NCBI GenBank assembly: GCA_025060595.1
Contig: JANXBX010000007.1
Coordinates: 37,785 to 101,784, forward strand
DNA length: 64,000 nt
Origin: Synergistota bacterium
GTDB taxonomy: Bacteria; Synergistota; GBS-1
Reading direction: 5' to 3'
Shown: piece after piece, positions 23,903-42,260 of the stretch
Layout: every line of letters begins with the position of its first letter
Numbering within the stretch: position 1 is the stretch's first letter
Position numbers and translations under genes: made by a program
The notes under the pieces: generated by a model
Databases searched by the model: none
The model's input: the letters and a program-made list of their open reading frames with translations, nothing else
What the model was told of the DNA's origin: nothing

Positions 23903-23905
23903 AAA

Positions 23906-23945
23906 TACAGGGAAGCAAGAAAAGGCTTTTTCTTGCTTCCCTGTA
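23906..23945. terminator. Strong hairpin terminator between converging operons
   Basis: A perfect 18-bp stem (arms 23906-23923 and 23928-23945) with a 4-nt loop. On the minus strand it is followed at once by TTTTT, so it is a textbook intrinsic terminator for the long AOR/hydrogenase operon. On the plus strand it lies 3 nt after the wtpC stop and is followed by a weaker pyrimidine tract, so it may work in both directions. Confidence 0.9.
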
Positions 23946-23957
23946 TGTCTTCTTCAT

Positions 23958-24542
23958 CTATATCTCTATTTTAGCTCCGAGTAACTCAACAAACTTTCTA
24001 ATCCATTCAGGGTGAGCCGGCCAAGCAGGTGCGGTCACAAATATATCATCAACTACAGCATTAGAGAACGTGCTGTTTGGAGGAACATAGGTAGCACCTG
24101 CAAGTTCCACCTCAGCAGCAACTGCAGGATATGCACAGATCTTTTTCCCACTTATAACCTTAGCTGCTGTCAAAAGTTGAGGACCATGACATATTGCAGC
24201 AATAGGCTTTTTATTTTCCGCAAACTTTTTCACAAGTTCAACCACCTTAGGGTTAATCCTTAAATACTCTGGAGCCCTACCACCAGGTATAACCAGGCCA
24301 TCGTAATCCTCAACCTTAACCTCATTAAAATCTTTAGTTATAGCGAAAAAGTGTCCAGGTTTTTCGCTATAAGTTTGATCCCCCTCAAAGTCATGAATAG
24401 CTGTTTTTACCCTCTCACCAGGCTTCTTACCAGGACATATCGTATCTACTTTATAACCAAGCATAAGAAGCATCTGATATGGAACCATTGCCTCATAGTC
24501 CTCTACGAAGTCTCCCACCAATACCAATATTCTTTTACTCAT
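23958..24542 (-). CDS. DJ-1/PfpI family protein
   Basis: 194 residues. Class I glutamine-amidotransferase-like fold, with nucleophile Cys in AAICHGPQLL (about residue 118) and the YDGLVIPGG loop containing the conserved acidic/Gly residues. Members include protein deglycases, glyoxalases and proteases; the exact activity cannot be told. Last gene of the hydrogenase unit, 16 nt after hypB, with GGGGGCGAGG before its ATG. It could be a protective or stress function riding on the operon. Confidence 0.88.
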   Translation of the reverse strand: MSKRILVLVGDFVEDYEAMVPYQMLLMLGYKVDTICPGKKPGERVKTAIHDFEGDQTYSEKPGHFFAITKDFNEVKVEDYDGLVIPGGRAPEYLRINPKVVELVKKFAENKKPIAAICHGPQLLTAAKVISGKKICAYPAVAAEVELAGATYVPPNSTFSNAVVDDIFVTAPAWPAHPEWIRKFVELLGAKIEI

Positions 24543-24558
24543 CTCGCCTCGCCCCCTT

Positions 24559-25209
24559 TTAGAACCTATTTATTTTAGATACTATCCAATTTACGAACTC
24601 CTCTATACCTTCTTCAGTTTCACAGGAGACTTCGAAAACTGGCATATCGGGCGCAATTCTCCTTATAGGCATATAAAATCTCTCCTTATTAAACTTAAAA
24701 AGAGGCAGTATATCAATCTTATTCAAAACTATAGCCTTAGAAACCTTAACTACTACAGGATATTTCTCTGGTTTATCATCTCCCTCAGGAACGCTTAAAA
24801 CCCCTATCTTGTAATCCTCTCCTAAGTCGAAAGCAGTAGGACAAACTAAGTTTCCTACATTTTCTATAAATAGGATCTCCATATCATCAAGAGGCAGCTC
24901 CTCTATAGCCTTGCCTACCAGATTAGCATCCAAGTGACAACCACCCTCAGTATTTATCTGAACAACCGGAACCCCGGCTTTATGTATAAGCTCGGCATCC
25001 CTAATAGTTGTTAAATCTCCCTCTATAACTCCTATCTTATATTTATCCTTTAACCTATTTATAACCCTTAAAAGTAGCGATGTTTTTCCCGCGCCAGGTG
25101 ATCCAATAAGATTAAAGGTTACTATACCTTTTTCCTTGAAGATCTTCCTATTCGTCTCTGCTACCCGTTTCTCCGCTTCAAGGACTTTTCTCACTATCTT
25201 TATCTCCAA
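24559..25209 (-). CDS. hypB: Hydrogenase nickel incorporation GTPase HypB
   Basis: 216 residues from TTG 25209. SIMIBI-class GTPase with Walker A IGSPGAGKTS, IEGDLTT, NTEGGCHLD, ENVGNLVCP and NKIDILP. No histidine-rich N-terminal nickel store. TTG 25209 gives the family-typical N-terminus MEIKIVRKVLEA and has AAAGGAG 11 nt upstream; the TTG at 25242 would add 11 atypical residues. It overlaps hypA by 32 nt. Inserts Ni with HypA into the large subunit HydL. Confidence 0.95.
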   Translation of the reverse strand: MEIKIVRKVLEAEKRVAETNRKIFKEKGIVTFNLIGSPGAGKTSLLLRVINRLKDKYKIGVIEGDLTTIRDAELIHKAGVPVVQINTEGGCHLDANLVGKAIEELPLDDMEILFIENVGNLVCPTAFDLGEDYKIGVLSVPEGDDKPEKYPVVVKVSKAIVLNKIDILPLFKFNKERFYMPIRRIAPDMPVFEVSCETEEGIEEFVNWIVSKINRF

Positions 25210-25564
25210 GTTTATCTTCACTCCTTTCAATTTCAAGTCCAATTAACTCAAATTCATTTCCTCCATCAATATCAAGCTCCTCACTTCCACACTTAGGACA
25301 AGCTCCAAAGAAATCATCAATATCAAAAGAGTGACCACATGAACGACACATACCTCTAAAAGGTACTTCCTCCAACTCAAGTTTAGCCCCTTTAGCTATA
25401 CTTCCCTCAGCCAAAGAGCCAAAGGCAAAACTTAATAGGTCAGGAACAACTCCTACAAGCTTTCCCACCCTAACCCTAACCTTAAGTATCCTACATGCCC
25501 CATATTTAACTGCTTCCTCTAAAACTACACTAATTAAAGCTTCCGCTAAAGAGAACTCATGCAT
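25178..25564 (-). CDS. hypA: Hydrogenase nickel incorporation protein HypA
   Basis: 128 residues. Begins MHEFSLAE, where His2 binds nickel, and has the zinc site CRSC…CPKC (about residues 72-93). Slightly longer than usual because the C-terminal, charged ~15 residues are encoded over the start of hypB. Overlaps the end of the hydrogenase protease gene by 19 nt. HypC-F are not in this window and must be encoded elsewhere. Confidence 0.95.
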   Translation of the reverse strand: MHEFSLAEALISVVLEEAVKYGACRILKVRVRVGKLVGVVPDLLSFAFGSLAEGSIAKGAKLELEEVPFRGMCRSCGHSFDIDDFFGACPKCGSEELDIDGGNEFELIGLEIERSEDKLGDKDSEKSP

Positions 25565-26013
25565 GTTTTTAATTTACTATTTATAAAGCTATAAAGTAAT
25601 TTTTCGACTTCTCTAGCAATCTCTCGCGTTCTCCGACTTAGCCCAGCACCAAAGGAAAAATCTTCACCTTTTATACTTAATATCCAAGATTCCGGTTTAT
25701 TTTTATAAATCTGATCAAGGAGGCATAAAAGATCTGCCGGATATAGCGTATGAGAAACATAGTTTAGGGGAGCATGGTGCTCCCCTACCTCTATTTTTCT
25801 TAAAGACCAAATTTCCTCACCAGCTGAAGCATCTATAAATATTAAATACCTTGCGTTTCTGAACTCTTCAATAAGCTCTGGCATAAGCTGATGTAGAAGG
25901 AGAACTTTTACCTTCTTTTCTCCTCCAAATCTAACTTTTACTCTTGCCCCTATCCATATGCCTACACCATCATCTTTTCTTAAGTAGTTTCCGTAGCCTA
26001 TTACAACTATCAG
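25546..26013 (-). CDS. [NiFe]-hydrogenase maturation protease, CTG start codon
   Basis: HycI/HoxW-type endopeptidase that trims the C-terminus of the large subunit. The first in-frame ATG (25884) would remove the essential N-terminus. Upstream of it the frame encodes IVVIGYGNYLRKDDGVG, the family's nickel-sensing motif. No ATG, GTG or TTG exists between the in-frame stop at 26053-26055 and that motif. The best start is CTG 26013, overlapping the hydL stop as CTGA, with GGTGAAAGG 3 nt upstream. From there it is 155 residues, the normal family size. IFIDAS and SHTLYP metal/substrate motifs are also present. Confidence 0.85.
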   Translation of the reverse strand: MIVVIGYGNYLRKDDGVGIWIGARVKVRFGGEKKVKVLLLHQLMPELIEEFRNARYLIFIDASAGEEIWSLRKIEVGEHHAPLNYVSHTLYPADLLCLLDQIYKNKPESWILSIKGEDFSFGAGLSRRTREIAREVEKLLYSFINSKLKTCMSSL

Positions 26014-27437
26014 GAACCTTTCACCAACTCTTTTATTTTGTTTCCTTCGGCATCATAAATCACAACCTGAAGTGGCATTTTACCAATAGCATGAGTAGCA
26101 CATGAAAGACATGGATCATAACATCTTATAGCAACCTCCAGCATATTTAAGAAACCCTCTTTTATTTCCGGTCCTCTTATATACTCTTTGGCAACAAGCT
26201 CCACAGCTTTATTCATAGCATGATTATTATGAACGGTAGCCACAACAAGGTTAGCTTTGATAATCTCACCATTTTCATTTACCTTATAATGATGTATAAG
26301 AGTTCCTCTTGGAGCTTCAAGGATACCCACTCCCTCAGGCTTAAAATCTCTACTAACTACTTGAAGCTCCGTTCCAGTGATATCAGGATCCTCTAAAAGC
26401 TCTTTCAAACGCTCTGCAGAGTGTAAAGCTTCTATCATTCTCGCATAATGATAGAAAAGAGATCCCTCTGCTACCCTATCTCCTATCATCTCACGAAAGA
26501 GTTTAAGCTCCTCTTTAGCTAAAGGAGTAGAGATATCATCACAACAATTTATCCTCGCCAAAGGCCCGACTCTGTAACTTCCCTCAGGATAGCCAAACTC
26601 CTTATAAAATGGAAACTTCATATAAGACCACGGCTCAACCCACTCGCCTATTTTATTAAGATATTCATCTTCGCTAAACTCATCAATAATTCTCCCTCTA
26701 TGATCACAGAGCCTTATCTTGCCATGGTAGAGATCAAGATTCCCATTGCTGTCCACAAGTCCCATATAGAAAGAAGGAAAAGAAGCGAACTTTCTGAATT
26801 TTTCTCCCCACTCTATAGCCAAGTTTCTAATCAGCCTAACTGTATCTTTAAGACTATCTATTACCCAATCTATATCCTTCAAAAGCGAATCTCTCTCCTG
26901 AACAGTAAGCCCTTTATTAACCCCCCCTGGAATAGCAAATCGAGGATGTATTCTTTTACCAGCAAGGGTCCTTATTACCTCCTGTCCATACTTCCTAAGC
27001 TTTACTCCTCTAATAGCTAAGTCCGGATACTTTTCTATTATACCTATAACATTTCTTATCTTAGGATCCGCATCCATACCCAAAAGAAGGTCAGGACTTG
27101 CAAGGTGGAAGAAATGCAAAGAGTGAGATTGAACTAATTGCCCCATATGCATAAGCTCTCTTAACTTCTTAGCCGTTGGAGGAATCTCAACACCTAGTAT
27201 TTTATCCGTAGCTTTAGCTGAAGCAAGATGATGACTAACAGGACATATACCACATGCCCTCTGGGTCATTACAGGCATTTCCCAAAAAACTCTACCTTCA
27301 CAAAATTTTTCAAACCCTCTTATCTGAGTAACATGGAAAAACGTTTTTTCAACCTTTCCATCTTCATTAAGGTATATAGTAACCTTACCATGTCCTTCTA
27401 CTCTGGTTACAGGGAATATTTCCAATTTGTTTCCCAT
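26010..27437 (-). CDS. hydL: [NiFe]-hydrogenase large subunit, group 3 (HydL/HoxH-like)
   Basis: 475 residues, cytosolic (no signal or Tat peptide). N-terminal NiFe ligands C62 and C65 in RACGIC, C-terminal ligands C443 and C446 in DPCLSCATH (His449). A 26-residue tail follows His449 and should be removed by the protease encoded next. Carries the H2-forming/oxidising NiFe(CN)2CO site. With the small subunit and NuoE/F/G-like partners it forms an NAD(P)- and ferredoxin-linked soluble enzyme. GGAGG lies upstream of the ATG. Confidence 0.95.
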   Translation of the reverse strand: MGNKLEIFPVTRVEGHGKVTIYLNEDGKVEKTFFHVTQIRGFEKFCEGRVFWEMPVMTQRACGICPVSHHLASAKATDKILGVEIPPTAKKLRELMHMGQLVQSHSLHFFHLASPDLLLGMDADPKIRNVIGIIEKYPDLAIRGVKLRKYGQEVIRTLAGKRIHPRFAIPGGVNKGLTVQERDSLLKDIDWVIDSLKDTVRLIRNLAIEWGEKFRKFASFPSFYMGLVDSNGNLDLYHGKIRLCDHRGRIIDEFSEDEYLNKIGEWVEPWSYMKFPFYKEFGYPEGSYRVGPLARINCCDDISTPLAKEELKLFREMIGDRVAEGSLFYHYARMIEALHSAERLKELLEDPDITGTELQVVSRDFKPEGVGILEAPRGTLIHHYKVNENGEIIKANLVVATVHNNHAMNKAVELVAKEYIRGPEIKEGFLNMLEVAIRCYDPCLSCATHAIGKMPLQVVIYDAEGNKIKELVKGS

Positions 27438-27455
27438 GATTTAAGCACCTCCTAA

Positions 27456-28001
27456 CTATTCATACGATAAAAGCTCTGGCGGCAATACAGGTATTTTTCC
27501 TTCAAGGAGCTCTCTTAACGCATATTCTATAGCTTTCGGATCAGGTGGACATCCCGGCACATAAACATCAACTTTAACAAATTGATCGATTGCCTTAACG
27601 CTTGGGAAAAGTTTAGGAACATCTTCATGAGGAATAACCTTTTCTGGATTAACAGTACTTTCCGTTTCCACATAAACCCTTTTTAGAACCTCCTCCTTTT
27701 TAAAGAAGTTTCTCATAGCAGGAATACCGCCAAAACAAGCACAATCCCCCAACGCCACTAATATTTTCGAATTCTCACGTATCTTTTTTAAAACTTCTAG
27801 TTGTTCTTCATTTCCAACAGCTCCCTCAACTATTCCTACATCAACTGGATGAAACTCCTTTATATCCGTTATTGGACTCGCATCAAACTCTATTTTTGAT
27901 GCTAACTCCACAAGTTTCTCGTCCAAATCTAACATAGACATATGACACCCAGAACAACACTCAAGCCATGTGGTAGCAACTCTTACTTTAGCCAAGTTCA
28001 T
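27456..28001 (-). CDS. hydS: [NiFe]-hydrogenase small subunit (HydS/HoxY-like)
   Basis: 181 residues, the short group 3 form with one proximal [4Fe-4S] cluster. Cysteines are in LECCSGCHMS (N-terminus), GDCACFGG (middle) and VPGCPPDP (C-terminus). No export signal. Passes electrons from HydL towards the NuoG-like subunit. Sits 12 nt after hydA and 18 nt before hydL. Confidence 0.94.
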   Translation of the reverse strand: MNLAKVRVATTWLECCSGCHMSMLDLDEKLVELASKIEFDASPITDIKEFHPVDVGIVEGAVGNEEQLEVLKKIRENSKILVALGDCACFGGIPAMRNFFKKEEVLKRVYVETESTVNPEKVIPHEDVPKLFPSVKAIDQFVKVDVYVPGCPPDPKAIEYALRELLEGKIPVLPPELLSYE

Positions 28002-28013
28002 CTCCCCCTTACA

Positions 28014-29855
28014 TTAAAGCTTTCTAACTATATCATCTATACTTATAGAGCCAAGCCTCATAGCATCAGCTAGGTCTGACAATAATTCTCTTGGACTCTT
28101 AACTCCTTTTTCCGCCTTTAGTATGGGACTAAACCTCCTAGCTTTTCCATCCATAACCTTATAAGTTCCCTCATTTTCAAGCCAGCTCTTACCTGGTATA
28201 ACTACATCAGAAAGCTTCATTATAGCATCTATATAAGCACTGTGGAGAACGATAGTCTCATAACCCTTCTCAGCTATGGATGCTGGTGAATAACTTGAAT
28301 CTATATCTCCAAGGAAAAGGAAAAGAAGCTTTTTGCTTTTACCAGCACTATCAGCCAAATCAGGACTTATTCCTAATTCCCAAGCAGCTAAGCTATTACC
28401 CGTAGGAGTTAATATCATAACTTTAACATTGAGCTCCTCAGCGAGCTTAAGCCATGGTTCTATAGCCTCTTTATTACTTAACAAGCTGGCCCCCTCTAAA
28501 ACTATAATCGAGTTAGACATCGACTTTATCTTATTCTTATAATCATTGGCAAGAGATCCTTCACTTCCCTCTGCTACCCTTCTTACCTCTTTAGCCCATC
28601 TATCTATCTTACTTTCAATAGAGGAAATTACTACTAGCTCCGCGCCTCTGTTTCTAACGGCTCTCCTTATATAGGAACCTACTACACTATGCTCCTTAAC
28701 TATATCTCCTCCTATAAGAAGAATTAGATCAGCATTAAGTACGTCCTCATATGTACCTTTAGAAAGCTTAAAAGAAGATAAGTTTCTATATACATTACCG
28801 TCAAAAGTGTCTATATCTTTCACCCCTATCCTAGACGCAAACTCTTTAATATAAGCTAAATCCTCCGCTGGTAGAAAAGAAGAGGTCCTAAAGGCAATTT
28901 GATCAGGAGAATAAGCTTTTAGAAGCTGAACAACTCTATTCAGGGCCTCTTCGTATGTGGCCTCTACAAACCTACCTTTAGAATCCCTAAGAAGAGGAGT
29001 AGAAATTCTGTTTCTAGATTCCATAAGAGGTCCATATCTCCCTTTCTCGCAAAGCTGTCCCCCATCCAAGCTTCCCTTAACCAAGCCATTTCCTTCTATT
29101 TCAACGATATTGTTGTATCTTACGTAATTAGTAGTTTCACAACCTATACCACATATAGGACAAAAGGTTTCTATTCTCTCACAGAGGCTCCTTCTGCTCT
29201 TATAACCTCCAAACTTGCTAAAAATGGCACCAGCTGGACAAACCTGCATACAGGCCCCACAAGATATACAGCTTGATTTCCCCTTGCTTAAACCTGTGTC
29301 CACAGCTATCAAAGCTTTAGAGCCTCTAAAGCTAAAGTCAAGCGTCGAGTTAGCCACAATTTCTGAACAGACCCTAACACACCTGCCGCAAAGTATGCAA
29401 CGGTTATGATCAGTAACCATCACTGGAGAGCTTGTATCCACTGGATACTTATCTACATAGACAGGGAATGGGAAGTGCTCTATTTGAACCTCATAAGCCC
29501 TCTTCTGAAGTTCACAATCCGTATCTTCGTATTTTCCACTTTTTTCACAGAACATACAAAAGTGGTTTCTCTCCGTCATTATAAGATTCATCACAAACTT
29601 ACGAGCTTCCTTAACTCTATCGGTATCTGTGTATACCTCCATTCCATCAGCTACAGGAGTAGTGCAGCTTGTTAGAAGCCTTGGAGAACCTTTAACCTCT
29701 ACAACACAAAGCCTACAACCTCCATGAGGAGTCAAACCATCATGATAACATAAGGTTGGAATTCTAAAGCCAGCTTTTCTAGCAGCTTCAAGAATCGTCA
29801 TTCCTTCTGTTGCAACAACATCTTTTCCGTTTATCTTCAGCTTTACCTCTTTCAC
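28014..29855 (-). CDS. hydA: NuoG-like iron-sulfur subunit of the hydrogenase (HydA)
   Basis: About 613 residues. Plant-type [2Fe-2S] domain (about 1-85: CYHDG, GGCRLC), His-Cys [4Fe-4S] site (HFCMFC…C), two ferredoxin [4Fe-4S] sites (CILCGRCVRVC, CISCGACMQVCP). A molybdopterin-family Fe4S4 motif CPICGIGC and the body of a molybdopterin-oxidoreductase-like domain to the end complete it. It is more like Complex I NuoG than the short HoxU. No H-cluster domain is present, so this is not an [FeFe] enzyme. GTG 29855 is preferred, with AGGAGG about 11 nt upstream; GTG 29867 abuts the Shine-Dalgarno. Confidence 0.9.
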   Translation of the reverse strand: MKEVKLKINGKDVVATEGMTILEAARKAGFRIPTLCYHDGLTPHGGCRLCVVEVKGSPRLLTSCTTPVADGMEVYTDTDRVKEARKFVMNLIMTERNHFCMFCEKSGKYEDTDCELQKRAYEVQIEHFPFPVYVDKYPVDTSSPVMVTDHNRCILCGRCVRVCSEIVANSTLDFSFRGSKALIAVDTGLSKGKSSCISCGACMQVCPAGAIFSKFGGYKSRRSLCERIETFCPICGIGCETTNYVRYNNIVEIEGNGLVKGSLDGGQLCEKGRYGPLMESRNRISTPLLRDSKGRFVEATYEEALNRVVQLLKAYSPDQIAFRTSSFLPAEDLAYIKEFASRIGVKDIDTFDGNVYRNLSSFKLSKGTYEDVLNADLILLIGGDIVKEHSVVGSYIRRAVRNRGAELVVISSIESKIDRWAKEVRRVAEGSEGSLANDYKNKIKSMSNSIIVLEGASLLSNKEAIEPWLKLAEELNVKVMILTPTGNSLAAWELGISPDLADSAGKSKKLLFLFLGDIDSSYSPASIAEKGYETIVLHSAYIDAIMKLSDVVIPGKSWLENEGTYKVMDGKARRFSPILKAEKGVKSPRELLSDLADAMRLGSISIDDIVRKL

Positions 29856-29870
29856 AGTATAAAACACCTC

Positions 29871-31442
29871 CTAAGATATTAATTCACTCTTGAAGAACTT
29901 AACAGCACTTGATAAAGGAAGGATAACTGACTGACCTAAGGCACATAGTGCCGTATCAGCCATTTTATCTGAAATTTCCATCATTTCTTTAAAATCCTTT
30001 TCGCTACCCTTACTCACCGCTATCCTCTCCATCTTTTCATAAAGCTTACTAATTCCTACCCTACAGGGTACACATTTTCCACAACTCTCATGCTTAAAGA
30101 AGAATATAACATTTTTGAGCATATCAACTATAGAAGTAGCTTCGTCAAAAACTAAGATAGCTCCTGAACCTAAAACCCCACCATACTCTTTCAATCCCTC
30201 ATAAGAAAGCGGGATATCAAGGGCATCTCTGCCTAAAAAGGCGCCGGCAGCCCCACCTATAAGAGCAGCCTTAAACTGCCGGTTGTTTCTAATGCCCTTG
30301 GCAAAGTCAAATATTACCTCCTTCAAAGTAGTCCCCATTTCCACCTCTATCAGCCCTGGTTCATTTACATGCCCAAGTATTGTATAAACCTTAGTACCTG
30401 GAGACTCTCTCGTTCCTATACTTCTAAACCAACTTGCCCCATTTAATATTATAGGTGGAACATTAGCAAGTGTTTCAACATTATTTACTACTGTAGGATA
30501 ACCCCATAATCCCTTGACACCAGGATAATACGGAGGTTTGGGCCTTGGGTTTCCTCTTTTACCTTCTATAGATTCTATTAAAGCTGTTTCCTCTCCACAC
30601 ACATAAGCCCCTGCTCCTTTCTTAATCTCCACATGAAAAGAAAAACCCGTCTCCAGAATATTATCTCCCAATAAACCCATCTTATAAGCATCCTCTATAG
30701 CCTTACCTATTCTTCTTATAGAAAGCTCATACTCTCCTCTTATATATAAGTAACCCCTTTTAGCTCCAACTGCATAACCTGCTATTATCATTCCCTCAAG
30801 AACTTTATGAGGATCCCCTTCAAGTATAAGCCTATCCTTAAACGTACCCGGTTCTCCTTCATCCGCGTTACATACCACAAACTTCTGAGAGGCTTTAACA
30901 TCAGCGGTAATTCTCCACTTTCTACCTGTAGGAAAACCTGCTCCCCCTCTACCTCTTAAACCGGAATTTTCTATTTCATTTATAACCCATTCAGGAGAAG
31001 ACTCTAAAGCTTTAGCTAAAGCTTCATAACCCCCAGTGGCTATGTATTCTTCTATACTGTCTGGATTTATAACCCCCGCATTCTGTAAAACAACTCTCTT
31101 CTGCCTGGCTAATTTTTTAGGAGCTTCACCTCTTGCTAGAATTTCGGCTATCTGGGGTTCAAGCATCAATCTTTTAACAAATCTACCCTTAAGAAGATGC
31201 TCCTCCACTATTTGAGGCACATCTTCAAGCTTTACATTGACATAGTAGACACCTTCAGGATAAACAAGCAAAACGACACCCCTACCTGTTATACCAAGGC
31301 TTCCCGTCTCAAGGACCCTAACCTCATCTTCAAGCCCTCGTTTCTTGATTTCTTCCTCGAGCTTCCTTTGGACCTCTCTTGCTCCAGCCAAAACAGCTCC
31401 CGCATCTATACCAACCAAAACATGGGCTCTCTCTATCCTCAT
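29871..31442 (-). CDS. NuoF-like subunit lacking N-terminal [2Fe-2S] cysteines
   Basis: 523 residues. The Complex I 51-kDa FMN/NADH domain (RGRGGAGFPTGRKW, NADEGEPGTFKDR, GAGAYVCGEETAL), SLBB, and C-terminal [4Fe-4S] site ESCGKCVPCRVG are intact. The N-terminal thioredoxin-like domain aligns with that of the neighbouring NuoF (31956-33749), but every cluster cysteine is replaced (VLVGIDAGAVLAG, TGSLGITGRG). The C-terminal 2x[4Fe-4S] ferredoxin domain of the neighbour is also absent. It keeps NADH/FMN chemistry but not the full bifurcating cluster set. Adjacent to its own NuoE and to hydA. Confidence 0.9.
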   Translation of the reverse strand: MRIERAHVLVGIDAGAVLAGAREVQRKLEEEIKKRGLEDEVRVLETGSLGITGRGVVLLVYPEGVYYVNVKLEDVPQIVEEHLLKGRFVKRLMLEPQIAEILARGEAPKKLARQKRVVLQNAGVINPDSIEEYIATGGYEALAKALESSPEWVINEIENSGLRGRGGAGFPTGRKWRITADVKASQKFVVCNADEGEPGTFKDRLILEGDPHKVLEGMIIAGYAVGAKRGYLYIRGEYELSIRRIGKAIEDAYKMGLLGDNILETGFSFHVEIKKGAGAYVCGEETALIESIEGKRGNPRPKPPYYPGVKGLWGYPTVVNNVETLANVPPIILNGASWFRSIGTRESPGTKVYTILGHVNEPGLIEVEMGTTLKEVIFDFAKGIRNNRQFKAALIGGAAGAFLGRDALDIPLSYEGLKEYGGVLGSGAILVFDEATSIVDMLKNVIFFFKHESCGKCVPCRVGISKLYEKMERIAVSKGSEKDFKEMMEISDKMADTALCALGQSVILPLSSAVKFFKSELIS

Positions 31443-31444
31443 TC

Positions 31445-31900: not shown

Positions 31901-31955
31901 GGAATTTTACTCCCCCTCCCTTGACTATAGCTTTACTCATCCCATCCTTGCTTCC

Positions 31956-34676: not shown

Positions 34677-35149
34677 TATCCACCATATTTAGAAATTATA
34701 TTTCTCACACTCTCAGGAGTAACCCTACCATGTATATCCTCATTAACCATAAGTACTGGAGCCAATCCGCAGCAACCAAAACATCTAGCTATATCTAGCG
34801 TGAACATACCATCAGGTGTTGTATGTCCTACCTTTATACCCAAAACCTTCTCAAGCTCCTTGACTATTTCTGGAGCTCCTCTAACATGGCATGCCGTACC
34901 TTCACATACGGTTATTATGTATTTTCCAACAGGCTCTCTTCTGAAAAAGTTATAAAAGGTCACAACACCATAAACAGTACTCTCCGGAATTCCAAGCTTC
35001 TCCGCCACAAGCTTTTGAACCTCCTCTGGAAGATAACCGATCTCTAGCTGAATAGAGTGAAGAGCACCTATAAGCGAAGACTGTCCCTTAGGAAAGCGAT
35101 TTAAAATCTTTTCAACTTTTTCAAGCTTTTCCTTTGATAATTTTACCAT
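34676..35149 (-). CDS. hydC: NuoE-like HydC, [2Fe-2S] subunit
   Basis: 157 residues. Helical N-terminus (FPKGQSSLIGALHSIQ), thioredoxin-like domain with cluster cysteines in CEGTACHVRG and ARCFGCCGLAP. Probable partner of hydB (31956-33749). Overlaps the PHP gene by 7 nt and the ATPase gene by 1 nt. Confidence 0.92.
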   Translation of the reverse strand: MVKLSKEKLEKVEKILNRFPKGQSSLIGALHSIQLEIGYLPEEVQKLVAEKLGIPESTVYGVVTFYNFFRREPVGKYIITVCEGTACHVRGAPEIVKELEKVLGIKVGHTTPDGMFTLDIARCFGCCGLAPVLMVNEDIHGRVTPESVRNIISKYGG

Positions 35150-35877
35150 ATTTTAACCCTCCTTTTATCTTGAATCGCTTCAATCAAATTGTAGGGATCA
35201 AGCCTGTCCAGACAAACAAGGGTTCTCCCTTTTCCAATAGAATCTAAAAAATGAGCATCAGAAGAAACTATAATAACGTGCTCGCTGAACTCTGGATGCT
35301 CCGAGAGAAATGAAGAAATATCCGTGGAGTGACCTATTTCTAATATCTTGAAGGGGAAATCCTGAGGAACAAAACCCAACACGGGGATTATCCCACAGAA
35401 CTCACGATTAACATGAGCTGGATAAGCTATACCTCTTAACTCCCTTGTCTTTTGAACAACATCCTCAATAGAAACCCTAGCAGAAATCTGAAGCAACCTC
35501 TTATCTATTTCAATAACATTATCCTCCTCATCCACAACCACTTGAACTCCAAATATCTCCTCATTGTTTATTAAGTTAGGTATATATTCTTTAAGCCATT
35601 CCTCAAAGCTCAGAACCATTTCCTCTGTTGGGAAAAGGGAGACAAGATGTACCTCCTCTTGCGTCTGCACTTCTATACCTGGTATGACCAAGATATTTTC
35701 CCTTTGACCAGCTCTAATGCATGCTCCGACATTCTTAGCACTATTATGATCCGTTATGGCTAAAACTTCAACCCCAACCTCTTTCGCTTTAAGGATAATA
35801 TTCCTGGGAGTCATCTCCCAGTCAGCACAAGCTGAAAGCACGGTATGTATATGAAGCTCTGCTTTAAACCATTTCAT
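35143..35877 (-). CDS. PHP-domain metal-dependent phosphoesterase
   Basis: 244 residues. Metal ligands are intact: HIHT near the N-terminus, TDHN, the Glu in GIEV, AYPAHV, and SDAHF near the C-terminus. Related to YciV/TrpH-type phosphoesterases and the PHP domain of polymerases. PHP genes recur in HydABC-type loci between DRTGG and NuoE genes; the substrate is unknown and a nucleotide-signal role is speculative. Confidence 0.88.
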   Translation of the reverse strand: MKWFKAELHIHTVLSACADWEMTPRNIILKAKEVGVEVLAITDHNSAKNVGACIRAGQRENILVIPGIEVQTQEEVHLVSLFPTEEMVLSFEEWLKEYIPNLINNEEIFGVQVVVDEEDNVIEIDKRLLQISARVSIEDVVQKTRELRGIAYPAHVNREFCGIIPVLGFVPQDFPFKILEIGHSTDISSFLSEHPEFSEHVIIVSSDAHFLDSIGKGRTLVCLDRLDPYNLIEAIQDKRRVKIW

Positions 35878-35893
35878 ATTATAACACTCTAGC

Positions 35894-36229
35894 TCACTTT
35901 AATCCAGCCTTAAATAAGATTCCAGAGGTTCTAAAGGAATTTTCCTTAGTCCTTATGATAGCCACACCTTCTTGCTTTGCCTTCTCAACAACCTTAGGAT
36001 CCACACTTTTATTCTCGCATATTATTATAGCCTTTATACCTACTAAGACGGCTACAGCAACCACATTCAAGTGGCTTTGTATAGTTACCCACACAGAGTC
36101 TGCTTTAGCTTTGCCTATAACTTCGCTTAAAAGATCGCTCGTATAACCGTAAGTCACCTCTTCATCCATGTTAAGCTCACCAGTCAAAACCTCACAATCC
36201 AAAATATCAACTATCTCCCTTATCTTCAA
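35894..36229 (-). CDS. DRTGG-domain protein (copy 1)
   Basis: 111 residues, a single DRTGG-type domain of the kind attached to CBS domains in pyrophosphatases and PTA. Begins MKIREIVDILDCEV and has a YGYTSDLLSEVIG segment. Presumed ligand binding (adenosine nucleotides). The canonical DRTGG letters are not conserved. Overlaps the CBS-ATPase gene by 4 nt. Confidence 0.8.
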   Translation of the reverse strand: MKIREIVDILDCEVLTGELNMDEEVTYGYTSDLLSEVIGKAKADSVWVTIQSHLNVVAVAVLVGIKAIIICENKSVDPKVVEKAKQEGVAIIRTKENSFRTSGILFKAGLK

Positions 36230-37179
36230 GACTCTCCCTCCCTAATATTAAAGACCATTTCCACTTTAGTCCCCTTTCCTACCTGAGATAGAATTATTAA
36301 TCTATCAGCTACTCTTCTCATGTTAGGCAAGCCCATCCCTGCACCAAAGCCGAACTCCCTTATATAATCCGGTGCTGTTGTATAACCCTCTTTCATTGCT
36401 AGATCTACATCTTCTATACCAGGTCCCCAATCCCTAACTAACACTACAACGCTATTTTCATCAAAAAATGCAAGAATTAGTCCCTTTCCACCAGCATGAA
36501 TAACTACATTTACTTCAGCTTCATAAGTTCCAACACTAACTCTTCTAATGAACGGTTTAGGATAGTTCCTTTTCTCTAAAACCTTCTTTAAAAAAGTTGT
36601 TCCCTCACCAGCTTCCATTATCGAACTTGTGTTTATCTCATATTTGAAAGAAGCCCTATTTTCTATAAACTCTTCTCCAGTTAGTATAGACACCTCTTTG
36701 CTTAAAAAAGCCTCTCTTCTTTTATCGTGAATGTATATTGAATGAAGACGTCTTAAAATAGCTCTCAAAATATCGTGTTTAGTTATTAAACCGACAAGCT
36801 TCCCCTTCTTGTCTATTACAGGATATCTACCATACTTATATTTCTCAAAGGTTTCCACCACTTTCTCAAACGTATCATTAGGCTCAAGATAGATTATCTT
36901 ATCTAAAGGTGTCATATATTCTCCTACTTTCTTATTTATCACACCCTCTTCAAGAGCTCTTATTATTCTTTCTGTACTAACTAAACCAACAAGCTTACCT
37001 TCACCATCCACGATAGGAATTCCCGAAATTCTTTTATCCCGCATAATCACCCTCGCTTCCGAAAGCTTATTCTCAGGCGTTAAAGTTATCAAATCCTTCT
37101 TCATTATTTCATCAGCGGTCATAAAGCTGAATATCCTTTTGTATTCGCTTAAATAATTCAAAATGTCAAGCTCGCTCAT
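36226..37179 (-). CDS. CBS-pair + HATPase (anti-sigma-type) fusion protein
   Basis: 317 residues. Two CBS domains (about 20-145: FMTADEIMKKDLITL, GISGIPIVDGEGKLVGLVS, GRYPVIDKKGKLVGLIT). A linker and a C-terminal HATPase_c region with RDWGPGIEDVD and FGFGAGMGLPNM (about 250-290) follow. CBS pairs sense AMP/ATP/NAD-type ligands, so this is an energy-state sensor candidate for the hydrogenase unit. Flanked on both sides by DRTGG proteins with 4-nt overlaps. Confidence 0.87.
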   Translation of the reverse strand: MSELDILNYLSEYKRIFSFMTADEIMKKDLITLTPENKLSEARVIMRDKRISGIPIVDGEGKLVGLVSTERIIRALEEGVINKKVGEYMTPLDKIIYLEPNDTFEKVVETFEKYKYGRYPVIDKKGKLVGLITKHDILRAILRRLHSIYIHDKRREAFLSKEVSILTGEEFIENRASFKYEINTSSIMEAGEGTTFLKKVLEKRNYPKPFIRRVSVGTYEAEVNVVIHAGGKGLILAFFDENSVVVLVRDWGPGIEDVDLAMKEGYTTAPDYIREFGFGAGMGLPNMRRVADRLIILSQVGKGTKVEMVFNIREGES

Positions 37180-37520
37180 ACCCCTCGCAGACCCCGTTCA
37201 TAAAGCTTACCACAAGCATCAAATAGGAAGTATCTGGTTTTTAAAAGAGGAATATTCTCCTCTTTCGCCTTATCCACAGTCTCAGGAAGAGGCTCCTTAC
37301 CTCTAACTATAACTATCCCGGCTAGATCCAATATCTTCCCTACCTTGACTATCTGTGGACTGACAATACCAGTTAGAAGAACGGATCCAGGTGTAGCAAA
37401 AGCCAGTATATCGCTAATCATATCGGACGCACATCCATATTTAACTTCCTTGTCAAGAAGCTCTTCACATGCATATACTTTGGCTTCCAAAATATCTCTG
37501 ATTTCCGCTAAAGTCAACAT
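37176..37520 (-). CDS. DRTGG-domain protein (copy 2)
   Basis: 114 residues, paralogue of the protein at 35894-36229 (LAEIRDILEAKVYACEELLDKEV start region, YGCASDMISDILAF). Probable ligand-binding partner of the CBS-ATPase. First gene of the accessory block, 27 nt after the ornithine-cyclodeaminase-like gene; no promoter is evident in that gap. Confidence 0.8.
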   Translation of the reverse strand: MLTLAEIRDILEAKVYACEELLDKEVKYGCASDMISDILAFATPGSVLLTGIVSPQIVKVGKILDLAGIVIVRGKEPLPETVDKAKEENIPLLKTRYFLFDACGKLYERGLRGV

Positions 37521-37547
37521 TCCTCACCTCTATTTTAAACAAGTTTT

Positions 37548-38528
37548 CTAAAAGTCCTTAATTTCGATACCAACACCCTTTTCCTTCGCTCTTTCATATA
37601 TAAGCTTTCCAACAACCACATCCTCAACCGCTATACCTACGGTTTTAAATACAGTTATTTCTTCTTTGCTCCTCCTACCAGCCTTGACTCCAGCTAAAAT
37701 CTCCCCAATTTCAACTATATCCTCTTTCTTCAAAACGGCTTCTCTTAAAGCCTCTATTACCTCTCCAGCCTCTTCAAGAACCGCCTCTTTAGAGTCTACA
37801 GCTACAACCGATGCTCTCTTAAAAACTTCAATATCTAGCTCTTTCATATCAGGTGTATAGGAACCTATTGCATTAATATGAACCCCTTCCTTAATATATT
37901 TTCCCCTTAACACTGGTTTATTCGACGTAGTGGCCGTAATTATCACATCGGCCTCAGGAATAACGCTTTCATAATCTCTAACAGCCATTACTTTTAAACG
38001 CATTTTATCAGTCATTTCTTTAGCGTAGATTTCTGCTTTTAAAGTATCAATATCATAAACGTAAACGAGCTCTATATCTCTAACTTCAGATAAAGCCTCG
38101 ATTTGAATTCTTCCCTGGACACCAGCTCCAATTACAAGAGCAACTTTCGAATCCTCATTAGACAAAGCCTCAGCTGCAGCTCCACCAGCTGCTCCCGTTC
38201 TAATGGTTGTAACGGTACTTCCTTCTATCAAGGCCTGAGGGACCCCCGTTTCACCATCTATAATGAGTACAGCAGCATTTATCAAAGGCAAACCTCTCTG
38301 AGGATTAAAAGGACATACAGATACAACTTTAACCCCTGCACATTTATCCTCGAGAGTTGCTCCAGGCATAAAAAGAGTCGCGTTATCTCCCAATTTTATC
38401 GAAACTCTCAAAGGAATAATAGCTTTGCTCTGAGAAAAAAGAGCAAATCCCCTTTTAACAGCCTCAATAGCATCCCGCATTGTTATAACCTTTCTCACAT
38501 CATCCCTAGTTATTACTAGCAATTTCAA
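37548..38528 (-). CDS. Ornithine cyclodeaminase / mu-crystallin family protein
   Basis: 326 residues. NAD(P)-binding motif VIGAGVQGRIQIEAL (about 128-142), FMPGATLE, GVKVVSVCPFN, NAIGSYTPDMKEL. The family includes ornithine cyclodeaminase, alanine dehydrogenase and ketimine reductases; substrate not predictable. Lies 9 nt after an FAD amine-oxidase-like gene, consistent with handling imines from amino-acid oxidation (inference). Confidence 0.9.
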   Translation of the reverse strand: MKLLVITRDDVRKVITMRDAIEAVKRGFALFSQSKAIIPLRVSIKLGDNATLFMPGATLEDKCAGVKVVSVCPFNPQRGLPLINAAVLIIDGETGVPQALIEGSTVTTIRTGAAGGAAAEALSNEDSKVALVIGAGVQGRIQIEALSEVRDIELVYVYDIDTLKAEIYAKEMTDKMRLKVMAVRDYESVIPEADVIITATTSNKPVLRGKYIKEGVHINAIGSYTPDMKELDIEVFKRASVVAVDSKEAVLEEAGEVIEALREAVLKKEDIVEIGEILAGVKAGRRSKEEITVFKTVGIAVEDVVVGKLIYERAKEKGVGIEIKDF

Positions 38529-38537
38529 TACCCCCCA

Positions 38538-39680
38538 TCAAATACAAACTGGCTCAGGTATGAGCTTACCCTTGTCAAACCTTTCTAAAAAGAAGGGAGT
38601 AATATCTATAAAGGGCTTCTCCCCAAGTATAAGTTCAGCCATTGCTCTGCCTATCGATGGGGCAAATTGGAGGCCATGTCCACTCCAACCAAGATTAAGA
38701 TAAAAACCCTCTATAAGGGTGGGGCCTAATATCGCTTGAGAATCTGGTGTAATATCATAAATACCAGCCCATTGCCTTATAACTCTTATCCCTGATAAAA
38801 GCGGCATTTTCCTAACCACCTTTTTTGCAGCTTCCTCAAGAAAAGCCCAAGAGGATTTCATATTAAACCCCTTAACTTCGTTTGGGTTGCCAATACCAAG
38901 CACAAAGTTACCATTAGGAGTTTGTTTCCAGTAAGAACCGTCATCTAAACAAAGTACAAAGCTGTTTAAGACCCTATCCACCGGTTCAGTAACCAATATC
39001 TGGTGCCTTTCGGGATATAGTGGAACATCAATACCTACCCAAGATGCTATCTCCTTACCCCAAGGGCCTGCACAGTTAACAATGACAGGAGTAGATATAA
39101 AACCCTTTTCAGTATAAACTCCTTCAACCTTACTTCCACTTAACTTAATTCCCCAAACTCCGGTATAAGTATATAATTTTACGCCGAGCCTTTTAGCAGC
39201 CTCAGCATAAGCCAAGGTAGCATGAAACGGATTTATATGACCATCCTGATCACAAAAGCTTCCCCCAATTATACCTTCTACATTAAGGCAGGGGAAAAGC
39301 TTTTTAATGTCCTCCTTAGAAAGCATTTTAGATGAAATACCAAGTTTATTTTGAAGCTTAACGTTTTCTTCAAGCTGCCTGAACTGCTTTTCAGTATAAG
39401 CTATCCAAAGATAACCACCTTGCTCAAATTCTATCCCTTTAGGATATTCAAGCTCATAAGAAAGCCTCTTAAAAGCCTCAATATTATACTTAGCTAATAT
39501 ACAATTTATTTCCGTTCCAAACTGGTGCCTTACCCCACCCGCTGACCTTCCAGTCCCTCCAAAAGCTAAAAAGCTCCGCTCTAATAAAACTATACTTCTA
39601 CATCCCTTTTTAGCTAAATGATAAGCTAAAGAACAGCCCTGGATTCCTCCCCCTATTATAACGACATCAGCTATTTCCAT
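38538..39680 (-). CDS. FAD-dependent amine/amino-acid oxidoreductase (DAO family)
   Basis: 380 residues. N-terminal Rossmann ADVVIIGGGIQGCSLAYHLA, GTGRSAGGVRHQFG near residue 45, and C-terminal LNLGWSGHGLQFAPSIG. Resembles sarcosine oxidase beta / glycine oxidase / proline-dehydrogenase beta proteins. In an anaerobe it is probably a dehydrogenase passing electrons to another carrier. In operon with MoaD-like and OCD-like genes. Confidence 0.9.
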   Translation of the reverse strand: MEIADVVIIGGGIQGCSLAYHLAKKGCRSIVLLERSFLAFGGTGRSAGGVRHQFGTEINCILAKYNIEAFKRLSYELEYPKGIEFEQGGYLWIAYTEKQFRQLEENVKLQNKLGISSKMLSKEDIKKLFPCLNVEGIIGGSFCDQDGHINPFHATLAYAEAAKRLGVKLYTYTGVWGIKLSGSKVEGVYTEKGFISTPVIVNCAGPWGKEIASWVGIDVPLYPERHQILVTEPVDRVLNSFVLCLDDGSYWKQTPNGNFVLGIGNPNEVKGFNMKSSWAFLEEAAKKVVRKMPLLSGIRVIRQWAGIYDITPDSQAILGPTLIEGFYLNLGWSGHGLQFAPSIGRAMAELILGEKPFIDITPFFLERFDKGKLIPEPVCI

Positions 39681-39688
39681 AAAAATGA

Positions 39689-39916
39689 TTACCCTCCAGC
39701 TATAGGAGCCATAAGAGCCACTTCTTGACCATCCTTAATCTCTTGAGACTTATCTAATACTTTACCATCCACTATTACACCTGCCACTAAATCCTCGGGA
39801 ATTTTAAGTTTAGCAAGAAGCTCTCTAACGGTTATAGAACCATCTATCTCCACATAACATACTTCAGGAATATATTTTTTAAGCAAAAGACCTCCCGTTT
39901 TAACCTTCACTGCCAT
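39689..39916 (-). CDS. MoaD/ThiS-like sulfur-carrier protein
   Basis: 75 residues, beta-grasp fold, ending in the Gly-Gly needed for adenylation and thiocarboxylation (APIAGG). Located directly after aor, so probably the sulfur donor for the tungstopterin dithiolene of AOR, a common aor neighbour. Its ATG lacks a close Shine-Dalgarno; the nearest GGGAGG lies inside the hairpin at 39926-39956. Confidence 0.88.
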   Translation of the reverse strand: MAVKVKTGGLLLKKYIPEVCYVEIDGSITVRELLAKLKIPEDLVAGVIVDGKVLDKSQEIKDGQEVALMAPIAGG

Positions 39917-39925
39917 GGATATACA

Positions 39926-39956
39926 AGTGAAGGGAGGCTTCTAACCTCCCTTCACT
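39926..39956 (-). other. Intercistronic hairpin between aor and moaD-like gene
   Basis: Perfect 12-bp inverted repeat (39926-39937 with 39945-39956), 7-nt loop. It includes the aor stop codon and a GGGAGG Shine-Dalgarno-like segment. There is no T-run on the minus strand, so it is more likely an mRNA-stability or translation-control element than a full terminator. Confidence 0.7.
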
Positions 39957-41766
39957 CTATCACCTCCAACTCTAATTCTTTTATTTTTTCTAAAGTCGGC
40001 CTGCCGTTTTTATCCCAACCCCTGACTTCATAATAAAAGTCAAGGAGCTTATCCACTTCTTCCTTCGGAATAAACTTTCCTTGCGTAGGACCACTTACCG
40101 CTGGTTCTTCCATCCATCTTGCGGGTGGATAATCATATTTCCTTCCAAAATCTGGAATTTCTCTCATCGCAAAGAGCCTGTTCTGGTTCCAAACTCTCTC
40201 AGCAGACTTAAGCAGCTCATCTAAAGTGGTTTCCCAACCTGTTATGGCACTATAAATCTTAGCATAATACTCTAAATCTAAGCCGCACTCCACCCATGTT
40301 AACCTACACACTCCAAGGGCGTCAAACATAGGTCTGGCATGCTGAAGGAAAACAACCCTCTCAGCTTTATCCCTTGTTATCTTCTCCCTTCCAACCTCAA
40401 TATCATAAGTTATAGCCCAAGCCCTGTTATGATGCGCTCCTATATCACACGTGGCGTAAGCAAGAAGCATAGCCGGTGCCAGATGAGAATCATAAGCGCT
40501 TATCTCCATACCTTTCACCTGCATAGCAAACTTTATTGAGTCTTTCCCAAAATACTCAGCCGCTTTCTTAGTTCCTTCAGCGAGAATATTCCCTATGCCT
40601 TCCCTTTTAGCCATCATTTCAGCAAGTTTTACAAAACTTTCTATATCTCCCCATTTCAATTCTAATCCTCCCGTATCTTGTTTAGTTATTATGCCCTTCT
40701 CATAACACTCCATTGCAAAAGCTATTATTCCACCCGTAGAAATAGTATCTAAGCCAAGATTGTCGCATACATAATTTCCATAAGTTACTTCATATATGGA
40801 GGGCATCATACAATTCCCACCAATCATACCGATAGTTTCATACTCTGGTCCCTCTACGTAATATTTTTTGCCCTTATATTCAACACAAGAGTAGCTACCA
40901 CAAGCTATTGGACAGAAGCCACAAGCCTTGTCATGAATTACCACTCTGCTTCTCATAGCTTCACCATTCATCTCTTTATAGTTATCATGATAACCTGTAG
41001 CAAAATTCTTCGTAGGAAAAGCCCCTATTTGATTCACCCAGTCTACAACCATGGATGTCCCATATCTCTGAAACTCAGGAAATACAGGGCTAGACATTAA
41101 CTTCTTAAACATTTCCTTGCCAATTCTAAAGTACCTATCAAAGTCTGCAACAGGTATGCTCTTAGTTCCACGAACAGCTATAGCCTTTATCTTTTTAGAA
41201 CCCATGACAGCTCCAACACCTGTTCTTGCAGATTCTCTGCCAAAGTCATGCCTTATTATAGCCACTTTAACCAAGTTTTCACCAGCAGGACCTATAACAG
41301 CTATTTGAAAATCCTCGCCCAACTCGTCTTTCAAGCTTTTCTCCGTTTCAATCGTTCCCTTCCCCCATAGATGCGAGGCATCTCTTATTTCCACATTATC
41401 ATCATCTATAAGTATATATACAGGATCTTTCGAAGCCCCCTCAAATATAACCATATCATAACCTGCATATTTCAACTCTGAAGCCAAATGCCCTCCCATA
41501 TTGCTATCTCCATAAATTCCAGTCAATGGAGATTTTGCAGCAAAGGTAATTTTACTTCCACAAGGGTTAAAAAGCCCCGCTAATGGTCCAGAGGCCATAA
41601 CAAGCTTATTCTCTGGCCCCAATGGATCTATACCCTTCTTAAGTTCTCTATAAAGAATATAAGAGGCAAAACCTCTTCCCCCAAGAAACTTCCTCGCCAT
41701 ATTTAAATCAAGAGGTTCGGTTTTTATCTCCCTTTTTGAAAGATTAATCCGCAAAACCTTATGCAT
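39952..41766 (-). CDS. aor: Aldehyde:ferredoxin oxidoreductase (tungsten enzyme)
   Basis: 604 residues, AOR/WOR family, oxidising aldehydes to acids with ferredoxin. N-terminal pterin region (GGRGFASYIL, LAGLFNPCGSK, YGDSNMGG, RTGVGAVMGSKKIKA). Cluster motif CGFCPIACGS is in the middle, with the last cluster Cys in FDALGVCRLTW. ATG 41766 is chosen because AGGAGG lies 6-7 nt upstream; the start 15 nt earlier has none. Flanked by a four-cluster ferredoxin and MoaD-like protein, and a tungstate transporter is 18 kb away. Confidence 0.95.
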   Translation of the reverse strand: MHKVLRINLSKREIKTEPLDLNMARKFLGGRGFASYILYRELKKGIDPLGPENKLVMASGPLAGLFNPCGSKITFAAKSPLTGIYGDSNMGGHLASELKYAGYDMVIFEGASKDPVYILIDDDNVEIRDASHLWGKGTIETEKSLKDELGEDFQIAVIGPAGENLVKVAIIRHDFGRESARTGVGAVMGSKKIKAIAVRGTKSIPVADFDRYFRIGKEMFKKLMSSPVFPEFQRYGTSMVVDWVNQIGAFPTKNFATGYHDNYKEMNGEAMRSRVVIHDKACGFCPIACGSYSCVEYKGKKYYVEGPEYETIGMIGGNCMMPSIYEVTYGNYVCDNLGLDTISTGGIIAFAMECYEKGIITKQDTGGLELKWGDIESFVKLAEMMAKREGIGNILAEGTKKAAEYFGKDSIKFAMQVKGMEISAYDSHLAPAMLLAYATCDIGAHHNRAWAITYDIEVGREKITRDKAERVVFLQHARPMFDALGVCRLTWVECGLDLEYYAKIYSAITGWETTLDELLKSAERVWNQNRLFAMREIPDFGRKYDYPPARWMEEPAVSGPTQGKFIPKEEVDKLLDFYYEVRGWDKNGRPTLEKIKELELEVIE

Positions 41767-41797
41767 GTAACCTCCTACCACTTAAAATCCCTCCCCC

Positions 41798-42187
41798 TTA
41801 ACTCTGAGCTACATAAAGAACGTTAAGCCCACAATATTCGATACACTCTCCGCAGAGATCACATTTTATAGGAGCACTCTCCGCAGGATGCTTTATCATT
41901 ATTTCCTCCGGACAAGCACTAACACAAGCATAACAACCGATACACTTCTCTCTATCAATTTTATAAACTTCTCCTTCTTGATATATAGCCTCTACTGGAC
42001 ATACGCTTGCACATACACCACATTGAGTACAAGTTACTACTTTAAAGCCTGGCTCAGGTAAATTAGATTTAATAAGAATAGCCCCCTTTTTTGGATTGCT
42101 CTCCTTAAAATGAGATAAAGCACACACTAACTGGCATACCTTGCATCCGCTACATAAACCAGATTTTGCCGCTAGATGCCTCGCCAT
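41798..42187 (-). CDS. Polyferredoxin, four [4Fe-4S] motifs, AOR partner
   Basis: 129 residues with four cysteine sets: CSGCKVCQLVC, CTQCGVCASVCP, CIGCYACVSACP, CDLCGECIEYC. Electron acceptor or relay for the following AOR, like AorB-type subunits. The start at ATG 42187 has the excellent Shine-Dalgarno GGGAGGGAGG. A longer frame to 42241 adds a basic stretch with no ribosome site and would begin upstream of the transcript start predicted here. Confidence 0.92.
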   Translation of the reverse strand: MARHLAAKSGLCSGCKVCQLVCALSHFKESNPKKGAILIKSNLPEPGFKVVTCTQCGVCASVCPVEAIYQEGEVYKIDREKCIGCYACVSACPEEIMIKHPAESAPIKCDLCGECIEYCGLNVLYVAQS

Positions 42188-42231
42188 TAACCTCCCTCCC
42201 CGCCTTAAAGATTGTAACTTTTTCCTATGAC

Positions 42232-42260
42232 ATTTTATCAAAAACAGACAGATAAAGCAA
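42232..42260 (-). promoter_or_regulatory. Promoter of the polyferredoxin-AOR-hydrogenase unit
   Basis: Minus-strand TTGCTT (42255-42260), 17-nt spacer, TGa-TAAAAT extended -10 (42232-42237), 45 nt before the polyferredoxin ATG. No other comparably good promoter or terminator was noticed in the genes downstream until 23.9 kb. Confidence 0.65.

Follow-up and report, generated by a model that had tools for sequence, protein, structure and literature searches.

The closest described relative of the locus analysed here is the bifurcating NiFe-HydABCSL hydrogenase of Acetomicrobium mobile (PDB 7T2R and 7T30; PMC8880783, PMC9304861), as a preliminary description of the locus had recognised, and parts of it also recall the non-bifurcating class of beta subunits (PMC7311640) and the class IV tungsten oxidoreductase (WOR) WorABCSL (PDB 9MQX; PMC13328260). 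We studied a 64,000-nucleotide stretch of a Synergistota bacterium (the window; contig JANXBX010000007.1, positions 37,785 to 101,784, assembly GCA_025060595.1), in which 22 minus-strand genes, a predicted transcription unit, join a tungsten aldehyde:ferredoxin oxidoreductase (AOR) to a [NiFe] hydrogenase. Coordinates are window positions, and all genes of the unit lie on the minus strand. The genome of the window (G000; 1.86 Mb, 99% complete) was compared with relatives from the same Synergistota family (G001, G002 and G003) and with loci across the phylum.

The unit shares with the A. mobile locus HydL, HydS, HydB1, HydC1, the cluster motifs of HydA, HydD, HisK, HydP and the DRTGG/PHP block, and differs from it in an extra HydC2-HydB2 pair between HydB1 and HydA, in a shorter HydA (617 versus 692 amino acids, ~38% identical to the canonical ones) and in the AOR, DAO and OCD genes upstream. 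Judged by gene content, the HydC2-HydB2 pair is the family-specific new part, the remaining hydrogenase operon being of known type, and we regard the pairing of a bifurcating with an apparently de-bifurcated NADH module in one NiFe-Bfu operon as our most valuable result. The basis of bifurcation in HydBC is still being worked out, and intact and de-bifurcated copies of one subunit side by side, probably after duplication, would be a natural experiment.

Two NADH modules in one hydrogenase operon

HydB1 (31956-33749, 597 amino acids) matches chain B of 7T2R with 887 bits and carries the N-terminal [2Fe-2S] cysteines, A/M, GAGAF and GGPSG, the His-Cys ligands of cluster B2 and two C-terminal [4Fe-4S] clusters. 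It is followed by HydC2 (31445-31900), an extra BfuC/NuoE recognised by Pfam, and by HydB2 (29871-31442, 523 amino acids), which has T/K for A/M, GAGAY for GAGAF, GGAAG for GGPSG and zero N-terminal cysteines; it ends before the His/Cys ligands of B2, is without the C-terminal ferredoxin-like domain and has lost the ligands of B2-B4. Among 44 HydB rows, the combination of T/K, GAGAY, GGAAG and no N-terminal cysteine occurs only in the three HydB2 proteins. In the alignment DEGDPG has become DEGEPG, which replaces the aspartate of bifurcating homologues by a glutamate as in Nqo1; the roles of this residue are taken from PMC10482914, the match of position is our own. Compared with the Bfu core, HydB1 and HydC1 have clusters B1-B5, A202/M204, His525, GGPSG, GAGAF and the [2Fe-2S] cluster of BfuC, whereas HydB2 and HydC2 do not make up this core, HydB2 lacking it in all three genomes. 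By the published criteria for beta subunits (PMC7311640, PMC9304861), with GAGA(F/Y) taken as their F/Y position, HydB2 is classed as non-bifurcating and HydB1 as bifurcation-type. HydB2 has the four beta-subunit features of the non-bifurcating class (PMC7311640), from which the locus differs in having a [NiFe] catalytic subunit, not an [FeFe] one, and in the bifurcating HydB of the same operon. The preliminary description had seen a complete NuoE/F/G-HydS-HydL bifurcating set; its hydrogenase genes are real, but the NuoF adjoining NuoG-HydS-HydL is HydB2, which has none of the bifurcation hallmarks, and the bifurcation-type NuoF is the upstream HydB1.

Downstream lie HydA (28014-29867), a NuoG-like hub that keeps the A1-A5 cluster motifs and is unusually diverged, HydS (27456-28001; Pfam Oxidored_q6, NCBIfam), the [NiFe] small subunit, and HydL (26010-27437), the large subunit, with RACGIC, DPCLSCATH, a cleavable C-terminal tail and 642 bits to A. 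mobile 7T2R_D. The maturation protease HydP (25546-26004, non-ATG start; TIGR00072), HypA (25178-25564; TIGR00100) and HypB (24559-25242; TIGR00073), all above their NCBIfam cut-offs, complete the hydrogenase described earlier; the hypB open reading frame overlaps hypA by 65 nucleotides (nt), and the true HypB start probably lies inside it. With HydS, HydL with CxxC at both ends, HydA A1-A5 and HydB/HydC, the genes have the composition of a type 3 Bfu enzyme (NiFe-HydABCSL), enlarged by HydC2-HydB2. HydA and HydC1 (34676-35149; BfuC with [2Fe-2S], the partner of HydB1, Pfam 2Fe-2S_thioredx, position kept in canonical loci) are 38 and 42% identical to their canonical partners, versus 63 and 71% within, and are more diverged from canonical counterparts than HydB1, HydL and HydS, which fits a remodelled hub or altered subunit contacts. 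HydA also has a five-residue insert in its second cluster motif (CMFCEKSGKYEDTDCELQ versus CMYCSQSGDCELQ).

HydC2-HydB2 lies between HydB1 and HydA only in G000, G001 (whose hydrogenase locus, L042, is that of 'bacterium 42_11') and G002, the only genomes with HydC2. Homologues of HydL with 55-61% identity occur in many other Synergistota families, and the canonical order (for example L092, L097, L099, L100 and L102) is DRTGG, CBS/HATPase, PHP, HydC, HATPase, HydD, HydB, HydA, HydS, HydL, protease, with one HydB and one HydC per operon wherever the upstream region is readable; in one such locus (L099, G010) HydB is identical to 7T2R chain B over 597 residues. That HydB2 might be typical of Synergistota was rejected, as the best match outside the family in a phylum search has at most 51% identity, and a pattern-limited contig scan, on which absence outside Synergistota rests, returned bacterium 42_11 as the only close relative.

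Two trees place HydB1 and HydB2 of the family in one split (support 100/97 and 99/96), and a topology with HydB2 outside the NiFe HydB group was rejected (p 0.029), so that HydB2 is probably a duplicate of HydB1. Between G000 and G001, HydB2 shows pN 0.074 and pS 0.733 (proportions of nonsynonymous and synonymous differences), the mark of purifying selection, although synonymous divergence is saturated and ratios of this type are no more than indicative. An AlphaFold model (pLDDT 78, pTM 0.74) can be superposed along its full length, including a thioredoxin-like N-terminal domain without cysteines, on bifurcating HydBs as well as on FdsB, a subunit of C. necator formate dehydrogenase (TM 0.85 to 0.87); as most rows of the alignment are bifurcating HydBs, this speaks for an intact fold, not for a function. 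A decaying pseudogene was discarded as an explanation, with pN far below pS, HydB2 intact in three genomes and a model that folds.

The aldehyde-oxidising half and its linkage

The upstream half begins with a WorS-like polyferredoxin (41798-42187; Pfam Fer4, four CxxCxxC motifs), followed by the AOR (WorL, 39952-41781; Pfam AFOR_N/AFOR_C) and a ThiS/MoaD-like protein (39689-39916; Pfam ThiS) equivalent to WorX, which is reported to be ThiS-like (PMC13328260). Among solved structures the AOR is nearest to P. furiosus FOR (1B25, 517 bits; 1AOR, 489 bits), and it keeps in alignment the residues at Thr243, Glu313, Tyr427 and His448 of PfAOR, whose catalytic residues are named in the same paper. 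A class IV WOR likewise combines an AOR, a polyferredoxin and WorX near BfuBC genes; unlike it, this locus has an AOR nearest FOR and BfuBC genes that belong to a hydrogenase. With AFOR_N/AFOR_C, Thr/Glu/Tyr/His, a four-cluster polyferredoxin and WorX all present, this is a bona fide tungsten AOR set, as the preliminary description had held, and the amino-acid enzymes that it placed between AOR and hydrogenase were found. The first is a DAO-family flavoprotein of the L-proline dehydrogenase beta/SoxB type (38538-39680; Pfam DAO), with its top PDB match in 1Y56_B, titled sarcosine oxidase in PDB, which we take to be the L-proline dehydrogenase beta subunit of P. horikoshii. The other is an OCD/mu-crystallin protein of the Delta1-pyrroline-2-carboxylate reductase type (37548-38528; Pfam OCD), with its top match in 6T3E, a Delta1-pyrroline-2-carboxylate reductase. 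The P. horikoshii proline dehydrogenase complex (1Y56) and 6T3E are the best solved relatives of the two, a kinship of similarity only; the SoxA-like alpha subunits of the G002 locus are a further 1Y56-like feature, and what sets DAO and OCD apart from those systems is their coupling with an AOR and a hydrogenase.

The 22 genes, which run from 42187 to 23958, are separated by 55 nt at most (between HydB1 and HydC2), a maximum that assumes a non-ATG start of the protease near 26004. For the polyferredoxin we prefer the ATG at 42187, behind GGGAGGGAGG, over the TTG of the longest open reading frame; the permease gene upstream is then 88 nt away. The candidate sigma-70 promoter there (42232-42260, minus strand; TTGCTT-N17-TGaTAAAAT) has 3/6 and 5/6 consensus matches and an extended -10 and is of moderate strength; a consensus scan left it below threshold and off its list, and returned 43 promoter-like sites against 47.2 in shuffles, no excess over chance. 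Its best support is comparative: in G002 a better promoter, TTTACA-N17-TACAAT, occupies the equivalent intergenic position. At the other end a bidirectional intrinsic terminator (23905-23946), of whose two tails the minus-strand one, TTTTTATC, is the better, has a perfect 19-bp stem, on which the tungstate ABC transporter genes wtpABC (21056-23902, plus strand) converge; in NCBIfam, WtpA (447 bits, cut-off 355) and WtpC (498, 440) pass and WtpB (330 bits) is slightly below its cut-off of 340. Spacing, promoter and terminator are compatible with a single predicted transcript from 42232 to 23905, and given the 88-nt gap and the promoter kept in position in G002 we think a fresh start here more likely than an extension of the upstream housekeeping genes. 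In this genome the earlier account thus stands on the 22 genes and their spacing, on a perfect terminator, on the convergent wtpABC and, as a prediction, on the single unit; the promoter that it called good is present and has its counterpart in G002, but is moderate and sub-threshold.

A neighbourhood check set beforehand, with absence everywhere as the adverse outcome, found the linkage in G001 and G002, hence in 3/3 family genomes that have this hydrogenase and across two genera. G001 contig C49 has AOR-WorX-DAO-OCD-DRTGG-CBS; in G002 an exact 127-bp overlap of contigs C9 and C18, inside an SLC6 gene, joins AOR...OCD to DRTGG...HydB2-HydA (permease, polyferredoxin, AOR, WorX, DAO, SoxA-like subunits, DAO2, OCD, Ddl, SLC6, then DRTGG...HydB2-HydA), and a third contig carries HydL...DJ-1 convergent with wtpCB-like genes. 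Beside other Synergistota HydABCSL loci, including that of A. mobile, no AOR was found in the stretches examined, and searches of open-access papers found no description of an AOR next to HydABCSL.

G000 encodes nine AOR paralogues, most of them in unrelated contexts, against one aldehyde dehydrogenase (none in G002), so the AORs probably carry most aldehyde oxidation. The DAO2/SoxA-like set and the SLC6 gene of G002 have orthologues on G000 contig C8, next to the gene of a trans-4-hydroxyproline dehydratase, a match above the curated cut-off. Pyrroline-5-carboxylate equilibrates with glutamate semialdehyde. It is the product of HypD (PMC7077986), and the hydroxyproline dehydratase link, this chemistry and the scarcity of aldehyde dehydrogenases make a proline- or hydroxyproline-type aldehyde our leading guess for the substrate of the AOR. 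The SLC6 gene beside the DAO2/hydroxyproline cluster (L136:10158-11141, G000 C8) is split over frames 3/1/3 where relatives have it intact, by either frameshifts or assembly errors.

Contig C1 of the same genome encodes an Mrp-antiporter-linked complex (L128:5121-13587) with NuoB/C/D/H/I-like subunits, no EFG nearby and a NuoD-like large subunit with CxxC pairs at both ends (CGIC, DPCMSC), from which we predict a group-4-like [NiFe] hydrogenase. It could take the same reduced ferredoxin, so the route from the AOR to HydB1 need not be dedicated: of the dedicated path from aldehyde through ferredoxin to H2 that had been suggested, the link between AOR and hydrogenase holds, but 'dedicated' is too strong with nine AORs and a second hydrogenase.

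Proposed function and competing explanations

We propose, with a probability of about 0.5, that one predicted unit combines an AOR half with a dual-module NiFe-Bfu hydrogenase. The first half (polyferredoxin, AOR, WorX, DAO and OCD) would act on an aldehyde derived from an amino or imino acid, oxidising it and reducing ferredoxin; the likeliest candidate is a semialdehyde that is related to pyrroline carboxylate and comes from proline or hydroxyproline. HydC1-HydB1 would confurcate NADH and reduced ferredoxin to H2, HydC2-HydB2, as a duplicated and de-bifurcated pair, would exchange electrons with NADH only, and both modules would feed one NuoG-like HydA hub and one HydS-HydL [NiFe] site, making H2 from NADH plus ferredoxin, or from NADH alone when a partner organism holds H2 very low. 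As to how the modules assemble, we tentatively favour, at somewhat less than even odds, one complex with two NADH-FMN modules on one hub, which could alternate between making H2 with ferredoxin coupling and making it from NADH alone, HydC2-HydB2 perhaps entering through the A4/A5 arm. In A. mobile HydA this cluster arm is a dead end; its motifs are kept in the window HydA, and its use as a second electron entry point here is speculation. If true, the hydrogenase could change its coupling with conditions, which would matter to fermenters living with or without H2-consuming partners, and the locus would connect a dual-module hydrogenase with the tungsten-dependent oxidation of aldehydes in organisms that have hardly any aldehyde dehydrogenases.

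Two enzymes might instead be made from one operon, HydA-HydSL pairing with either HydC1-HydB1 (bifurcating) or HydC2-HydB2 (NADH only). Each HydC-HydB pair is complete in itself, purifying selection acts on both, and by analogy with 7T2R HydA has one evident docking face for HydB/HydC; strict co-location with a single HydA in 3/3 genomes and the unusual divergence of HydC1 and HydA tell against two isoforms without being decisive, and we consider them unlikely but a serious contender. The contiguity of HydC2-HydB2-HydA-HydS-HydL would also suit a non-bifurcating NADH-dependent hydrogenase with HydC2-HydB2-HydA as its sole diaphorase, HydC1-HydB1 serving another partner such as the AOR and polyferredoxin, much as BfuABC is joined to WorL and WorS in class IV WORs (WorABCSL; PMC13328260, PDB 9MQX). 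Such a WOR, however, has its own WorABC beside WorSL, and the unit encodes no separate, second BfuA; HydB1 scores higher against the NiFe HydB (887 bits) than against 9MQX_B, the HydB of the WOR (718 bits), and HydC1-HATPase-HydD-HydB1 occupies the HydC-HydB place of an A. mobile-type NiFe operon, which leaves this division of labour improbable. A separate [FeFe] HydA elsewhere as the partner of HydB1 was rejected, the genome encoding no [FeFe] hydrogenase. HydC2-HydB2 could further be the input module of another complex without NuoEFG, such as the Mrp-linked one on C1, which has no EFG genes nearby, and the NADH site of HydB2 has turned Nqo1-like; yet the pair is encoded within the HydABCSL operon in 3/3 genomes and Mrp-linked group-4 enzymes are normally ferredoxin-linked, and we give this very little credence.

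The AOR, DAO and OCD genes might adjoin the hydrogenase by chance, with no functional link: the canonical HydABCSL loci examined are without the linkage, G002 may transcribe the two blocks separately, and AOR homologues (51-53%) in G007, G009 and G040 have no adjoining hydrogenase in the stretch examined. Against coincidence, which we think decidedly unlikely, the linkage is kept across two genera despite changed intervening genes, and the tungstate-type transporter genes are still convergent in G002.

Several points weigh against the proposed dual-module unit. The unit, its assembly, the direction of electron flow and the aldehyde are deduced here from sequence, and searches of open-access papers found no description of a NiFe-Bfu enzyme with two BfuBC pairs; in A. 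mobile two identical pentamers make up the enzyme (PMC8880783), which makes a second docking site a prediction. The p value of 0.029 is not strong given the long HydB2 branch, and the placement of HydC2 in the tree is not resolved. DAO and OCD reach no specific NCBIfam equivalog cut-off, which leaves the substrate uncertain. G002 has a 22-bp hairpin and a promoter-like site after the SLC6 gene and ahead of DRTGG1; its two blocks may therefore be distinct units, and co-transcription not general. Its HydB1 also has a GltD-like domain in place of the ferredoxin-binding one, so that in some members of the family the low-potential branch may work with something other than ferredoxin. G003, from a third genus, has no HydL and no such hydrogenase in its genome.

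Accessory genes and other loci

Between OCD and HydB1 the unit encodes two DRTGG domain proteins (37176-37520, slightly below its Pfam cut-off and also present in the A. mobile-type locus L099; 35894-36229, Pfam), a protein with a CBS pair and an anti-sigma/kinase-like HATPase (36226-37179; Pfam), a PHP-domain phosphoesterase-like protein (35143-35877; Pfam), HydC1, a HisK-like HATPase (34125-34676; Pfam) and a HydD-like Trx-fold ferredoxin homologue (33774-34124; weak NCBIfam 2Fe-2S ferredoxin match), whose gene adjoins HydB across the phylum. For the A. mobile operon, HydD, HydP and HisK had been pointed out before (PMC8880783). The DRTGG/CBS/PHP/HATPase genes are present in canonical loci and are therefore a normal part of the hydrogenase operon; the accessory signalling block set apart in the preliminary description exists, but as an ordinary component of standard HydABCSL operons. 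A DJ-1/PfpI family protein (23958-24542; TIGR01382 above cut-off) is encoded at the downstream end.

Elsewhere in G000, a bacterial-microcompartment-like locus (C1:4000-18000, L129; named by eye) contains an RnfC-like protein and the only aldehyde dehydrogenase of the genome. CooS-CooC-HydC-HydB-HydA-like sets (Codh-Bfu), previously reported only in Firmicutes (PMC9304861), were not found in G000 and occur in G002 (L133:1707-8051), G001 (L134) and G003 (L082), the names CooS and CooC being given by eye from sequence. HydB1 of G002 (1004 amino acids; C18, L078:4340-7354) ends in a GltD-like domain of the NADPH-oxidoreductase type, and similar HydBs of 1046-1048 amino acids, on a separate tree branch, occur in G173 (L098:6946-10086) and G019 (L110:3147-6293), suggesting NADP-linked NiFe-Bfu variants.

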